This document shows, one piece after another, positions 2,109-6,001 of a DNA stretch of 6,001 nt (the first letter of the stretch is position 1; each line of letters begins with the position of its first letter). A program made the translations under genes and the position numbers. This DNA comes from Eubacterium sp. (GTDB taxonomy: Bacteria > Bacillota > Clostridia > Oscillospirales > Acutalibacteraceae), in contig JAFYFO010000252.1 of assembly GCA_017543725.1 (NCBI GenBank), positions 1 to 6,001 of the forward strand. Reading direction: 5' to 3'. The notes under the pieces are model-generated. The model saw only the letters and a program-made list of their open reading frames with translations, did not search any database and was not told the origin of the DNA.

Positions 2109-3209
2109 TTATTTCTTCGTTACGTTTTCGCCGTAAATTGTCTTCCAGTCATTCTTCATTGAAATTGCCGTCCAGCCGTTTTCCTTGCAACTGTCAGCCA
2201 TTTTCTGCGCTTTTTCGGGGTTGCCGTTTTCGCGCTGAGTATCGTCGCAGCAGAGCATAAACGCCTTTGCTTTGTATTCATTGTTGTTTATTGTGTATTC
2301 AGCCATACTTGAATCGCTTCCGCTGTTTCCGAAGGATAAAACGGGCTGTTTTCCGATTTCCTGCTGAATAACGGTAACTTTGTTCATATCAAGGTTTTTG
2401 ATAAGGAATTCGCCGCCCATAATGAGTTGGTCGTCGTCATCAAACTGATAATCAAGGCCGTCCGTTTTGCCCTGGTCGGTTGCAACCATTGATTCATCCG
2501 AACCGATAATCTGTGAGTCGGGCAAATCAAGCGGGGAAGCCTTAACAAGACCTCTGACGATAAATCTGTCTGTTCCGCTGACAACATAAACCGTGAAATC
2601 ATTCTCTTTAAGAAGTTCAACAACTTCAAGCATCGGCTTAAAGAAAGCCTCGCCCCTTGTCATATTATTATATCCTGGAGCGGGGGTTTTTGCATACTCA
2701 GCAACATAATCAATGAATTCTTCGGGAGTTAAGCCCTTGAACGCAGAGGCAACAGCCTTGCCGTGCTTAACCATCAAATCTTCAGGAGAAACGCCCGTAT
2801 CCATATACTGCTTAACTTCTTTTGCAACATCCTTTTCAAAATCGCTTGCCTTATCCTTATAATTCTCATCCTCTGCAACACGGTGGTAGTAAATGCAGTG
2901 GTCGAAATAAACGGGGTCTGTTTCGCAGGCGAGAGTTCCGTCGAGGTCGAAAACCGCAATTCTGTTTTCAACGGGGATGAAATCTTCTCCGCCCTCAGTT
3001 GTAACTGCCTTGAGATAATCAAGAAGTTCTGTTTTTGCCGCTGCGCTGTCGTTCCAGAGTGAGAGCGCGCTCTGAGGTACTTCGGCGGTTTCGGGTTTGC
3101 TTTCTTTTTTTGTGTGCGCTGCGAATGAAACGCTCACAGCAATTAATGCAATTGCAAGAATTAAGGAAATAATTTTCCAGATTAATGAATTATTTTTTGT
3201 TTTTTCCAT
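2109..3209 (-). CDS. Exported HAD-superfamily phosphatase (phosphoserine phosphatase-like fold)
   Basis: A complete 366-residue protein. Residues 10-30 (IWKIISLILAIALIAVSVSFA) form a hydrophobic segment after a short basic start, so it is exported, either cleaved near SFA-A or kept as an N-terminal anchor. A linker rich in Lys, Glu, Pro and Ser follows. HAD motif I is D88-L-D-G-T92 (Asp88 nucleophile, Asp90 acid/base). Motif II is Ser211 in VYVVSGTDRF, the motif III lysine is probably Lys271, and motif IV is FGNSGSD (293-299). Motif IV has Asn295 in place of the first Asp of GDGxND and keeps Asp299. The region between motifs I and II (about 95-200) is long and mostly helical-looking, fitting a C1-type cap. 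The expected reaction is hydrolysis of a phosphomonoester outside the cytoplasm, but the substrate cannot be deduced. AAGGAAGG about 5 nt upstream supports the ATG at 3207-3209. It is convergent with the carboxypeptidase gene and has its own promoter. The superfamily is sure; the function beyond phosphatase is not. Confidence 0.88.
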   Translation of the reverse strand: MEKTKNNSLIWKIISLILAIALIAVSVSFAAHTKKESKPETAEVPQSALSLWNDSAAAKTELLDYLKAVTTEGGEDFIPVENRIAVFDLDGTLACETDPVYFDHCIYYHRVAEDENYKDKASDFEKDVAKEVKQYMDTGVSPEDLMVKHGKAVASAFKGLTPEEFIDYVAEYAKTPAPGYNNMTRGEAFFKPMLEVVELLKENDFTVYVVSGTDRFIVRGLVKASPLDLPDSQIIGSDESMVATDQGKTDGLDYQFDDDDQLIMGGEFLIKNLDMNKVTVIQQEIGKQPVLSFGNSGSDSSMAEYTINNNEYKAKAFMLCCDDTQRENGNPEKAQKMADSCKENGWTAISMKNDWKTIYGENVTKK

Positions 3210-3255
3210 AGTCGTCCTTCCTTTTCGGTTATTAATCTGAGTTTTAACCCTTTTT

Positions 3256-3284
3256 ATTTTAGAAAAAGATGTTCATTTTGTCAA
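3256..3284 (-). promoter_or_regulatory. Near-consensus sigma-A promoter for the HAD phosphatase gene
   Basis: On the minus strand a perfect TTGACA (3279-3284) is followed after 17 bp by TAAAAT (3256-3261). It is the best promoter in the window by eye. Transcription should start near 3249, giving a leader of about 40 nt that includes the GGAAGGA ribosome site (3215-3221). No operator-like dyad overlaps it, so constitutive expression is a reasonable guess. Confidence 0.85.
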
Positions 3285-3456
3285 GGAAAATTAACAATAT
3301 GCGTGACTGAGCATTTTTTACATTTTCTCAAAGTAACATAATTTTAAATTGGTATTAGTATTATTTTATGTTAGATTAAAAATCCCCGAAAGTTGGTTTT
3401 GGCTGGCTTTCGGGGAACTTCTTTCAGCGAATTTCCTAAAAAGATTAAACAAAATA
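3285..3456. other. Intergenic region between the divergent HAD and STAS-NRPS promoters
   Basis: This AT-rich stretch lies between the HAD promoter on the left and the STAS promoter on the right, within a 318-bp gene-free spacer. Apart from the minus-strand hairpin at 3378-3416 I see no coding frame with a ribosome site, no tRNA-like fold and no recognisable riboswitch core. The left part (3290-3375) is almost pure AT with runs such as ATTTTTTACATTTT and could bind regulators or act as an UP element, but no repeat supports a specific operator. Confidence 0.5.
3378..3416 (-). terminator. Strong hairpin with a U-tract on the minus strand only (orphan terminator)
   Basis: TCCCCGAAAG (3383-3392) pairs perfectly with CTTTCGGGGA (3407-3416), a 10-bp GC-rich stem around a 14-nt loop. 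Read leftward it is followed at once by TTTTT (3382-3378), the form of an intrinsic terminator. Read rightward it is followed by ACTTCTTTC, a poor U-tract. No gene in the window is transcribed leftward into it, since the genes on either side diverge. It may stop antisense transcription coming back from the STAS-NRPS operon before it reaches the HAD promoter, end a small unannotated RNA, or be a structured element on the plus strand. The structure is certain; its role is not. Confidence 0.6.
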
Positions 3457-3485
3457 TATACTTTTTTAGTATTATATGTTATAAT
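3457..3485 (+). promoter_or_regulatory. Extended -10 promoter for the STAS-NRPS operon
   Basis: A perfect TATAAT (3480-3485) is preceded by TGT, giving an extended -10. The hexamer 17 bp upstream (3457-3462, TATACT) is a weak -35. The start would be near 3492, giving a leader of about 36 nt that ends in a strong AGGAGGT ribosome site (3514-3520), 7 nt before the ATG. A short inverted repeat, ATACT-5-AGTAT (3458-3472), lies over the -35 and spacer and could be an operator, though in such AT-rich DNA it may be chance. No sigma-B-type GTTTAA/GGGTAT pair is visible, so the STAS gene does not look driven by a stress sigma factor here. Confidence 0.65.
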
Positions 3486-3527
3486 TGAACTAACTATTTG
3501 ATGTTTCATTAACAGGAGGTACTTATA

Positions 3528-3821
3528 ATGGATATTAAGAAAGAAATAAACGGCAAAATCTGCACATTATGCCCCGAGGGAAGAATAGACACTCTGACCT
3601 CAGCTGAACTTGATGAAGCAGTAAACGCCGCTTGCAAGGAATGTGAAAAACTCGTTCTTGATATGAAGGATGTTGATTATGTTTCCTCAGCGGGAATCCG
3701 CGTTATAATTCAGGCGCACCAGACTGTTGGAAAAGATAGTTTCTCGCTCAGAAATGTTTCAAAAAATGTTATGCAGTTATTAACTATGACGGGATTTGAT
3801 AAGGTCCTGACTTTCGAATAA
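3528..3821 (+). CDS. STAS-domain protein, anti-sigma-factor antagonist type (SpoIIAA/RsbV-like)
   Basis: A complete 97-residue single-domain protein. The layout is that of a STAS domain: an N-terminal beta hairpin (DIKKEINGKICTLCPEGRID), the Leu/Ala-rich helix after DTLTSAELDE, the central strand LVLDMKDVDYV (42-52), the signature loop VSSAGIRVI (52-60), and a C-terminal helix ending MTGFDKVLTFE. In SpoIIAA and RsbV this loop carries the serine phosphorylated by the cognate anti-sigma kinase. Ser54, two residues before Gly56, aligns best with RsbV Ser56, with Ser53 as the alternative. Known relatives bind an anti-sigma factor when unphosphorylated and so free a sigma factor, but some act on other targets. 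A strong AGGAGGT site 7 nt upstream suggests high translation. It is the first gene of a likely operon with the NRPS, which starts 10 nt after its stop. No kinase or PP2C phosphatase partner is encoded inside the window. Confidence 0.9.
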   Translation: MDIKKEINGKICTLCPEGRIDTLTSAELDEAVNAACKECEKLVLDMKDVDYVSSAGIRVIIQAHQTVGKDSFSLRNVSKNVMQLLTMTGFDKVLTFE

Positions 3822-3831
3822 TGGAGAAAAA

Positions 3832-6001
3832 ATGAGCAGACTTACTGAAAAAATTTGCGAAAACATAAAAAAATATCCCGAATTTCAGGTTCTTTCGGAC
3901 GGCAAAGGCGCCTTTTCGTTTTCGCAGTTTGATTCCTGCGCACGAAAAATTGCTTCAAGGCTTATCAAAAACGGAGTCGGCAAAAACGATTTTGTTACAA
4001 TAGAACTCCCGAGAAATAAGGAATATATCGCCGCTATGTATGCCGCTTGGCTCACAGGAGCGGCTTTTGCGCCGTTGCTGACAACCTATCCCGAAGAAAG
4101 GCTTGAATCAATCAGAAACGACTGCTGTGCAAAGGCGGTTATAAACGAAAAATTCCTGCGCTCAATTGAAAAAGAAGAGCCATTTGCAGGAAACGCCGAG
4201 GCAGACGACGATACGCCTGCGCTTTTGATTTACACTTCTGGTTCAACGGGCAGACCCAAGGGCGTTTTGCACACCCACGGAAGTATCAGCGACGCTGTTT
4301 TTCGTTATAACGATTATTTTGATTTTCAGCAGGGATGCCGCACTGCGCTTGCAGCGCCTTTCTCATTCGTTGTTTCCGTTCACGATATTTTCCTTCCGCT
4401 GACAGTTTGCGCAACGGGCTGCATTATGCCCCTTGATGTTATGCGCGACCCTGTTTTGCTTGCGGATTTTATTGATGAAAATCAAATCAATCATCTTTTC
4501 ATCAGCCCCAAAATGCTGAAAGTTTTTCAACCCAAGGGCAATTCACTCAAAACTGTTTACACAGGCAGTGAGCGTGTTTCAGACACATACAGCGAGGATT
4601 TTGAACTTGTTGTTATGTACGGCCAGTCGGAGTGCGCAGGAACGCTTGCCTTTAAAGTTGATAAAAAATATTCAAACACCCCGATAGGTCTTCCAATCGG
4701 CGAGGTTAAGGCTTATGTTCTTGATGAAAACGGCAATCAGGTGCAGGAGGGCGAACTCTGCCTTGCGGGCCGTTTTGCAAGGGAATATCTCAATCTTCCC
4801 GAACAGAGCGCCAAAACCTTCACAAAAAATCCGTTTTGCGCTGAGGACGGTTTTGAAAATCTGCTTCGCACGGGCGATATTGTTAAGCGCGGCGAAGACG
4901 GAAATATCATCTTCCTCAACCGTATGGACTGGATGGTTAAAATAAACGGCCAGCGTGTTGAGCCGAGTGAAATTGAAACTGTTATCAAAAGTGCAAACGG
5001 CGTTTTCGATGCGGCGATAAAGGATTTCAAAAACCAATACGGTCAGGTTTACCTTGTTGCTTATTATGTTGAAAAAGAAGCCGTTGACGCGCAGGATATC
5101 AAGGAAGAAATCTCCAAAAAACTTCCATCATATATGATACCTTCTTTCTTTGTTAAACTTGATAAACTGCCGATTAACGCAAACGGAAAACTTGACAGAA
5201 ACGCGCTTGAAGTCCCCGAGGCTGCCGCGTTTAAAAATGATTATATCGCTCCCGAAACCGATATGCAAAAAGCGCTTTGCCACGCCTTTGAAAAGGTTCT
5301 TTCGGTTGAGAATGTCGGCGTTGACGACGATTTCTTTGCCCTTGGAGGCGATTCAATAAAATGCGCTATGGCGGCAAGCGAATGTTCGCTTTATAAAATC
5401 AGCACTTCCGATATTTTTGCAGGCAAAACGCCCAGAATGATTGAAAGACTTCTGATTAAAAAAGCCTCGAAAAAAACGCTTGTTAAAAAGGCTGAAAAGC
5501 CGAGAATATATCCCCTGACTCCGTTTGAAAGGGGAATGTATCTTGAGCAGAAACTTGATGAGAATTCAACGGTTTACAATCTTAATGTCGGCGCTGTTAT
5601 CAACAAAACGGACACAAAGAGCCTTAAAGATGCACTGTGCAAGGTTTTCAAAGCGCACGAGGCGTTTTGCTCGTATTACGGCGAAGAAAACGGCTTGCCC
5701 GTCAGAATTCTCTGCGATAAATTGCCTGAAATCGAAGTTGAAAAGGCTGAAAACCGCGAGGATGTTATTTCAATTATTGATAACTACGCAGTTCCTTTCA
5801 ATCTCAATTCGGGCATTCCTGTCAGACCCAAAATATACGAAATAAGCGACGGAAGCCTCATTCTGCATATGGCGATTCATCATATTGCGTTTGACGGCGG
5901 TTCTGCCGAAGAGTTTATAAACGAACTTTCCGACGCACTCAGCGGCAAGGAAATTCAGAGCGCTGAACTTGACCTTTCCGATATTTACGATGTTCAGGAT
6001 A
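3832..6001 (+). CDS. Nonribosomal peptide synthetase, A-T-C N-terminal portion (cut by window end)
   Basis: An open frame from ATG 3832 reaches the right edge without a stop (723 codons). The adenylation domain covers about 1-456: A3 YTSGSTGRPKG (134-144), A5 MYGQSE (262-267), A7 RTGD (346-349), A8 RMDWMVKINGQRVEPSEIE (364-382), and A10 NANGKLDR with Lys453. A carrier domain follows, with DDDFFALGGDS and Ser508 as the phosphopantetheine site. After a Lys-rich linker (about 540-557) a condensation domain begins at YPLTPFERGM (560-569) and has an intact HHIAFDG motif (683-689, catalytic His684). The usual RHExLRTxF motif is degenerate (AHEAFCSYY, 608-616). By alignment, the position of GrsA Asp235, which binds the substrate amino group, is Val180, and positions 236 and 239 are Val181 and His184. 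With no C domain before the A domain, this is an initiation module feeding a downstream module. GGAG 5 nt before the ATG and the 10-nt gap to the STAS stop imply co-transcription. It is certainly NRPS; the product is unknown. Confidence 0.95.
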   Translation, partial: MSRLTEKICENIKKYPEFQVLSDGKGAFSFSQFDSCARKIASRLIKNGVGKNDFVTIELPRNKEYIAAMYAAWLTGAAFAPLLTTYPEERLESIRNDCCAKAVINEKFLRSIEKEEPFAGNAEADDDTPALLIYTSGSTGRPKGVLHTHGSISDAVFRYNDYFDFQQGCRTALAAPFSFVVSVHDIFLPLTVCATGCIMPLDVMRDPVLLADFIDENQINHLFISPKMLKVFQPKGNSLKTVYTGSERVSDTYSEDFELVVMYGQSECAGTLAFKVDKKYSNTPIGLPIGEVKAYVLDENGNQVQEGELCLAGRFAREYLNLPEQSAKTFTKNPFCAEDGFENLLRTGDIVKRGEDGNIIFLNRMDWMVKINGQRVEPSEIETVIKSANGVFDAAIKDFKNQYGQVYLVAYYVEKEAVDAQDIKEEISKKLPSYMIPSFFVKLDKLPINANGKLDRNALEVPEAAAFKNDYIAPETDMQKALCHAFEKVLSVENVGVDDDFFALGGDSIKCAMAASECSLYKISTSDIFAGKTPRMIERLLIKKASKKTLVKKAEKPRIYPLTPFERGMYLEQKLDENSTVYNLNVGAVINKTDTKSLKDALCKVFKAHEAFCSYYGEENGLPVRILCDKLPEIEVEKAENREDVISIIDNYAVPFNLNSGIPVRPKIYEISDGSLILHMAIHHIAFDGGSAEEFINELSDALSGKEIQSAELDLSDIYDVQD

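Follow-up and report, generated by a model that had tools for sequence, protein, structure and literature searches.

Why does a gene for an anti-sigma-antagonist-type STAS protein lie directly ahead of a gene for a nonribosomal peptide synthetase (NRPS), and on what might such a protein act there? The question is raised by a 6001-bp stretch of Eubacterium sp. DNA (JAFYFO010000252.1, here called the window), an entire contig (C176) of a metagenome-assembled genome (MAG) of 1.69 Mb in 398 contigs that is scored as 74.6% complete. On its plus strand, the 97-amino-acid (aa) STAS protein (3528..3821) is followed after 10 bp by the NRPS (3832..6001), placed from its open reading frame, Pfam matches and relatives, of which the first 723 of about 1975 aa (by homology) precede the contig edge. 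This linkage is real and conserved. In many related loci the pair is joined by a SpoIIE phosphatase carrying a kinase-type HATPase domain. Judging from sequence, it is conceivable, with somewhat less than an even chance, that the STAS protein is switched by this one SpoIIE-HATPase protein and acts directly on the peptide pathway, be it the synthetase or an exporter, and not via a sigma factor.

The linked STAS and synthetase genes

The window's STAS protein consists of a single STAS domain (Pfam PF01740, 58.2 bits against a cut-off of 22.6; STAS_2, 38.7 bits), matches the NCBIfam superfamily ant_ant_sig (TIGR00377, 65.6 bits, cut-off 53.45) and has PDB relatives in 4hyl and 1sbo; it stays below the cut-off of the SpoIIAA equivalog TIGR02886 (31.1 versus 114.75 bits). 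A ribosome-binding-site-like AGGAGG (3514..3519, +) precedes the STAS gene, and a GGAG (3823..3826, +) lies ahead of the NRPS start within the 10-bp gap. A sequence scan found neither a promoter-like nor a terminator-like site in this gap, confirming what the initial annotation had described.

Because the contig stops at 6001, the partners of the pair were sought in relatives. A genome-collection scan yielded 310 of these, and the best 80 of the 310 were kept; the titles of these 80 are mostly those of ruminant-gut MAGs, with some from other sources and a few isolates; one isolate, Ruminococcus sp. FC2018, has STAS and SpoIIE-HATPase in its related locus (L131). Adding the window and the four loci from its genus, and removing four duplicates, gives 81 annotated loci. 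At least 6 kb on either side of the NRPS is present in 32 of the 81, the well-flanked set; of the 49 others, which fall short of this on one side, five are the window and the four congeneric loci. Among the 60 loci that extend 1 kb or more upstream of the NRPS, the window being one, 18 have a STAS gene on the same strand whose end precedes the NRPS by −8 to 69 bp, yet the window's genome has just five STAS matches in its 1.69 Mb, that of the window among them, indicating that the linkage is beyond chance. On an NRPS tree of 64 of the 81 loci (short rows left out, quick method, long branches flagged), a directly upstream STAS gene is found in 20 rows, namely all 19 of one supported clade, which includes the window, and L078 outside of it.

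The further claim that the only visible promoter precedes the STAS gene is weak: two promoter-like sites do lie there (3446..3475 and 3509..3536, both +, each with 9/12 matches), but the five such matches in the region are not clearly above the 2.7 (standard deviation 1.7) found in shuffles. The scan also found a terminator-like stem of 15 pairs (3383..3416, +), which sits between the STAS gene and a divergent gene, with no plus-strand gene running directly into it; the window, this stem included, has no Rfam match at the gathering threshold. The divergent gene (2109-3209, −) encodes a HAD-family protein (Pfam HAD) with an N-terminal hydrophobic stretch, which may belong to the pathway, as L081, L100 and L115 each have a close homolog at 0.8-5.7 kb from their NRPS. 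A GPH-type transporter encoded near the window's left end was dropped as a cluster member; no homolog was found in the other NRPS loci (E <= 1e-8).

Phosphatase, kinase-type and exporter genes near related synthetases

In four congeneric genomes, STAS and NRPS have the HATPase-bearing SpoIIE phosphatase as their neighbour, and three gene orders occur. The three complete loci read STAS-NRPS-SpoIIE/HATPase in G034, where the last gene starts 90 bp past the NRPS, SpoIIE/HATPase-STAS-NRPS in G007, and STAS-SpoIIE/HATPase-NRPS in G001; G064 has the order of G007 with its NRPS cut. One of the two options of the initial annotation placed a kinase and a phosphatase past the right edge of the window, the other being direct regulation of the synthetase by STAS, and a SpoIIE phosphatase is indeed found beside STAS and NRPS in relatives, but the kinase-type domain is fused to it in the congeners. 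Within 6 kb of the NRPS, as detected with seed hidden Markov models (STAS, SpoIIE, HATPase, MATE) derived from these same loci, the well-flanked set has STAS in 25/32, SpoIIE-HATPase in 21/32, a MATE exporter with a HATPase tail (MATE-HATPase) in 24/32, and at least one of the three in 28/32. Across 80 loci, 36 SpoIIE-HATPase genes lie within 2 kb and two at 6-10.5 kb, and the MATE-HATPase numbers are 37 and 0; STAS is two-peaked, with 28 within 2 kb, 20 at 4-6 kb and six at 6-10.5 kb. The gene of about 577 aa that follows many of these NRPSs was at one point taken for a PP2C, since the seed model cross-matched its HATPase tail; those scanned with Pfam are MatE plus HATPase_c_2.

The residues expected of a working switch are present in the relatives. 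The codon 3687..3689 (+) of the window specifies Ser54, the second Ser of VSSAG and the predicted phosphoacceptor, by analogy with SypA Ser56 and BtrV Ser55 as given in the available text of PMC8256260; its position is Ser in 58/58 STAS rows from within 6.5 kb of a related NRPS. In the SpoIIE phosphatases, the metal residues and kinase motifs are intact (alignment of 24 rows chosen from 39), and among the 41 sequences used for motif counts the fused HATPases keep GGxG (the G2 box) in 41/41 and ExxxN in 39/41. The HATPase tails of the exporters have GGxG in 0/38 and ExxxN in 38/38. GGxG is likewise missing from 17 further MATE-HATPases (0/17; 10 from NRPS-free loci of the genus, six beside distant NRPSs and one in G084), and ExxxN is also absent from the 10 of NRPS-free loci and from that of L177. 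In L077, L090, L093, L096 and L120, which are more distant than the congeneric loci, a stand-alone HATPase gene lies within 6.5 kb of the NRPS, with GGxG and ExxxN in 5/5. Since the G2 box is lost from every exporter tail and kept in every phosphatase-fused HATPase, the tails look like docking domains, and we infer that the kinase would be the phosphatase-fused or the stand-alone HATPase. A separate run in L077 (20454-22800) has STAS, a stand-alone HATPase with intact motifs and an unfused SpoIIE in a row, the nearby NRPS already having a fused set.

The phosphatase may be a membrane protein, judging from its N-terminal hydrophobic stretches and helices. Its structure model has a mean pLDDT of 85.0 and a pTM of 0.49, with the N-terminal region outside the listed fold matches, the second of which is the PP2C of SiaA. 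For the exporter, predicted from 40 aligned sequences, the fold matches listed fill up with the MATE part, and the HATPase tail is identified by Pfam and motifs.

What the STAS protein may act upon

These parts suggest a relay beyond transcription, in which a membrane phosphatase-kinase acts through STAS to gate the assembly line, and to gate export through a dead kinase domain on the MATE pump; this fuller scheme is put forward tentatively, as a minority possibility. An outside cue would reach the predicted membrane region of the phosphatase, whose HATPase would phosphorylate STAS on Ser54 and whose SpoIIE domain would take the phosphate off again. Unphosphorylated STAS might then dock on an output. 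In the window's lineage this would be the synthetase, as no exporter-HATPase lies beside the NRPS in the three complete congeneric loci, and, at loci that have the exporter, its kinase-like tail. Making of the product, its export, or both, would follow the cue.

A classical partner switch has to be weighed against such a direct action. There, STAS would free a sigma factor from an anti-sigma kinase, either the HATPase of the phosphatase or a HATPase gene on another contig of the window's genome (C119), and the sigma factor would turn on the NRPS operon. The parts of a classical switch, STAS, SpoIIE and HATPase, are present, regulation of NRPS expression is what the available text of PMC2812497 proposes for an archaeal cluster, and unfused HATPase genes exist at some loci. 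On the other hand, a sigma factor gene was among the neighbours that the initial annotation had named to look for, and no SigF-type gene was found in the 81 loci with the one SigF-like query used. ECF-like genes (one further query) lie near the NRPS in just five of the 81, at 3.7-8.9 kb and thus within 9 kb; other sigma types could escape these two queries. Archaea are not known to have sigma-70. The archaeal cluster (PMC2812497, as far as its text is available) would thus offer such a switch no sigma-70 to act on. On balance, an output through a sigma factor appears unlikely, if still a serious contender.

Less probable again is a switch confined to export, in which unphosphorylated STAS gates the MATE exporter via its HATPase tail and lies near the NRPS merely because all belong to one cluster. 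Of the 60 loci with 1 kb downstream, 37 have a MATE gene as the next gene after the NRPS, the missing GGxG of the tail (38/38) is what a docking domain might show, and a second operon of the genus joins MATE-HATPase to SpoIIE-type genes, and to STAS in 5/9 congeneric loci, in places where there is no NRPS. Against it, G034, G007, G001, L121, L105 and L137 have STAS and SpoIIE-HATPase, but no MATE-HATPase in the DNA around the NRPS. Genome-wide, G034 and G007 have just a distant one (22-23% identity), and G001 has none at E <= 1e-20. That the neighbourhood is neutral, with common STAS and SpoIIE modules lying beside an NRPS without a functional link, is disfavoured and seems very improbable. 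The window's own genome does have, besides its five STAS matches, other STAS, SpoIIE-HATPase or MATE-HATPase loci, but the density of SpoIIE-HATPase and MATE-HATPase genes falls with distance from the NRPS, and the directly upstream STAS is kept throughout a clade and through three gene orders of a single genus.

Several observations weigh against a STAS switch acting directly on this pathway. Although the STAS linkage that the initial annotation proposed to seek across Clostridia does recur, 7/32 well-flanked loci are without STAS within 6 kb, in part the very outcome that the initial annotation had named as speaking against it. Four of the 32 (L081, L082, L087 and L102) have none of the three genes in that range and ABC exporter genes instead, although an unfused SpoIIE is present in L082, and L102 does have SpoIIE-HATPase and STAS at a greater distance. 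In a control with distant NRPSs (391 genomes drawn from the class, E <= 1e-250), 11/391 genomes match, the window's own included, and the other 10 provide 12 loci whose NRPSs are 32-36% identical and, where complete, 2235-2993 aa long (one is split by a stop and one is cut). STAS together with SpoIIE-HATPase is present in just one of these 12 (L182), whereas a MATE gene lies beside the NRPS in 9/12, with a detectable HATPase in 6/9 (the tail is below detection in L179-L181), indicating that the exporter fusion is a wider trait and the STAS-phosphatase pair lineage-bound. As to the remaining distant loci, in L177 a SpoIIE-like gene is truncated by the region edge, L188 has none of these genes, and L178 and L187 are short contigs without them. 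Within the window's own genome, neither the remaining part of the NRPS (E <= 1e-60) nor a close partner phosphatase was found. The same genome has a run of STAS, HATPase and sigma genes on C119, and sigma-region-4 matches are plentiful, with 8-18 in each of five genus genomes, though the family also matches in archaeal controls, so that not all matches are sigma factors. The STAS and NRPS distances correlate (r 0.84, 22 rows, 0/2000 permutations), a value in which shared descent is uncontrolled. Finally, the STAS protein of G007 is also 72-75% identical to those of loci whose phosphatases are 44-48% identical.

This last point bears on a pattern that fits an exchange of the STAS-phosphatase pair while the synthetase stayed. 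The NRPS of G007 is nearest to that of G034 (85%), but its STAS and phosphatase are just 43% and 42% identical to those of G034; for STAS, identity is 76% with G064 and with L083 alike, and for the phosphatase it is 65% with G064 and 59% with L083. As similar STAS proteins occur with dissimilar phosphatases, this reading is not the unique one. Across 16 loci, distances correlate for STAS and phosphatase (0.77), STAS and NRPS (0.86) and phosphatase and NRPS (0.83) alike, and consequently single out no pair.

Partner-switch genes recur beside apparent enzymes and transporters in these genomes, which makes a non-transcriptional output somewhat more probable for the NRPS pair. The window's genome has STAS, a STAS-APH fusion and SpoIIE-HATPase on C129, perhaps another partner switch with an enzyme output, and SpoIIE-HATPase, a 275-aa protein and MATE-HATPase on C313. 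The STAS-APH-type kinase fusion lies at 2343-3482 (−) of L007 (C129), and L152 has a STAS protein of like size (13880-15013, −). The NRPS-free set of C313 (L149, 732-6289) is also seen in nine congeneric loci (L151-L153 and L155-L160). It consists of a protein of about 295 aa, MATE-HATPase, a protein of about 275 aa that is acetyltransferase-like by eye, and a SpoIIE-type gene whose HATPase is fused, separate (L151) or cut by the contig end; STAS lies beside this set in 5/9 of the congeneric loci. Neither of the two small L149 proteins has an NCBIfam match.

Other cluster forms exist as well. ABC exporter genes lie within 9 kb of the NRPS in 7/32 well-flanked loci. In L081 (3956-16625), L085, L087 and L100, an ABC exporter, an AMP-ligase-like protein, a PGA_cap protein and the NRPS replace the switch genes, with a phosphopantetheinyl transferase in L081, L085 and L100 and not in L087. 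L122 has two NRPSs: the first comes with ABC genes, and behind it (18877-25886) follow SpoIIE-HATPase, MATE-HATPase and STAS in succession and then another, partial NRPS, of which 974 aa are visible.

The synthetase and its known counterparts

The window's part of the NRPS comprises, all on the plus strand, an adenylation domain A1 (AMP-binding, 3862..4773) with its C-terminal subdomain (AMP-binding_C, 4969..5190), a thiolation domain T1 (PP-binding, 5272..5451, motif LGGDSIK) and the start of a condensation domain (5503..5958, motif HHIAFDG). Full-length relatives are 82%, 79% and 62% identical over this part, G034 being the closest (82%). The orthologs of G034 and G007, at about 1975 aa, read A-T-C-A-T-reductase; the window shows A-T and part of C. 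In motif FSFVVSVHDI, A1 has Val at the place that we take to be that of GrsA Asp235, a column with Val in 63/71 and Ile in 8/71 rows with letters (7 of 78 are gapped), which makes it likely that the substrate has no alpha-amino group. Given this and the terminal reductase of the relatives, the product is likely to be a short N-capped aminoacyl aldehyde or alcohol. The checked catalytic residues of the thiolation, condensation and reductase domains are kept in every row with letters. For A2, A-domain codes yielded no confident substrate assignment; its motif SFDMSFKEH is present in 77/77 rows with letters, a biased count, since FDMSFKE served as the search pattern.

The full NRPS is matched in 8/80 genomes of the genus (E <= 1e-60): six (G000, G034, G007, G001, G064 and G084) contain an ortholog, whole or in part, and G002 and G076 have other NRPSs at 29-38% identity. 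The NRPS is spread over two reading frames in L074, L082, L098 and L135.

Such synthetases are part of a larger rumen repertoire, in which, according to the available text of the respective reports, 5,346 NRPS clusters occur in 8,160 genomes, the vast majority in Firmicutes (PMC8241843), and dimodular pyrazinone-type NRPSs in 13/981 genomes (PMC9540692). Should a sensor protein control this NRPS family via a STAS switch, the cue and the product could be tested jointly. A peptide synthetase under a post-translational partner switch would be an unusual form of secondary-metabolism regulation, and the fusion of an altered anti-sigma-kinase-like domain to a MATE pump would offer a means of gating efflux through protein phosphorylation.

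The initial annotation's view that such regulators do not normally lie by a peptide assembly line is not fully accurate, as antagonist, phosphatase and MatE neighbours of an archaeal NRPS were described in 2010 (PMC2812497), the only prior description found in the open-licence PMC literature. In that literature, of which coverage is partial, nothing was found on the MATE-HATPase fusion or on clade-wide linkage in Clostridia. As far as the available text of PMC2812497 goes, the Methanobrevibacter ruminantium M1 cluster mru0066-mru0071 is, like most of the loci here, from the rumen, and has an NRPS with an antagonist gene, a MatE gene and genes for two serine phosphatases around it; roles in sensing the environment, in controlling NRPS expression and in export are proposed. 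A thioester reductase domain, as in the relatives here, is named in the legend of Figure S8, where the main text has a thioesterase. The cluster differs, by this published description, in being archaeal and in a first module that opens with a condensation domain, and the description used does not mention a MATE-HATPase fusion.

With the aureusimine synthetase AusA, the NRPS shares a dimodular build and a terminal reductase, and AusA (NF047350) is the best NCBIfam match of the G034 NRPS over nearly the full length, at 1008 bits; unlike in AusA, the first condensation domain is absent and A1 is without the Asp for the alpha-amino group, and the cut-off of 2500 is not reached. The switch genes share with SpoIIAA/RsbV-SpoIIAB/RsbW-SpoIIE/RsbU a STAS protein with a conserved Ser, a kinase-type HATPase and a SpoIIE phosphatase, as outlined in the available part of PMC8256260, which reviews STAS-only proteins. 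They differ in that phosphatase and HATPase form one fused protein in the closest relatives (cf. Rv1364c, 3ke6), that an altered HATPase sits on a MATE exporter, and that no SigF-type gene was found in the cluster. The proposal made here resembles SiaABCD of Pseudomonas aeruginosa, in which, according to the available text of PMC8457831, a phosphorylation-switched small protein acts directly on an enzyme; there, the output is a diguanylate cyclase, the phosphoacceptor is a Thr and the kinase SiaB is a separate protein, whereas a peptide synthetase, its exporter, or both would be the target in the present case.

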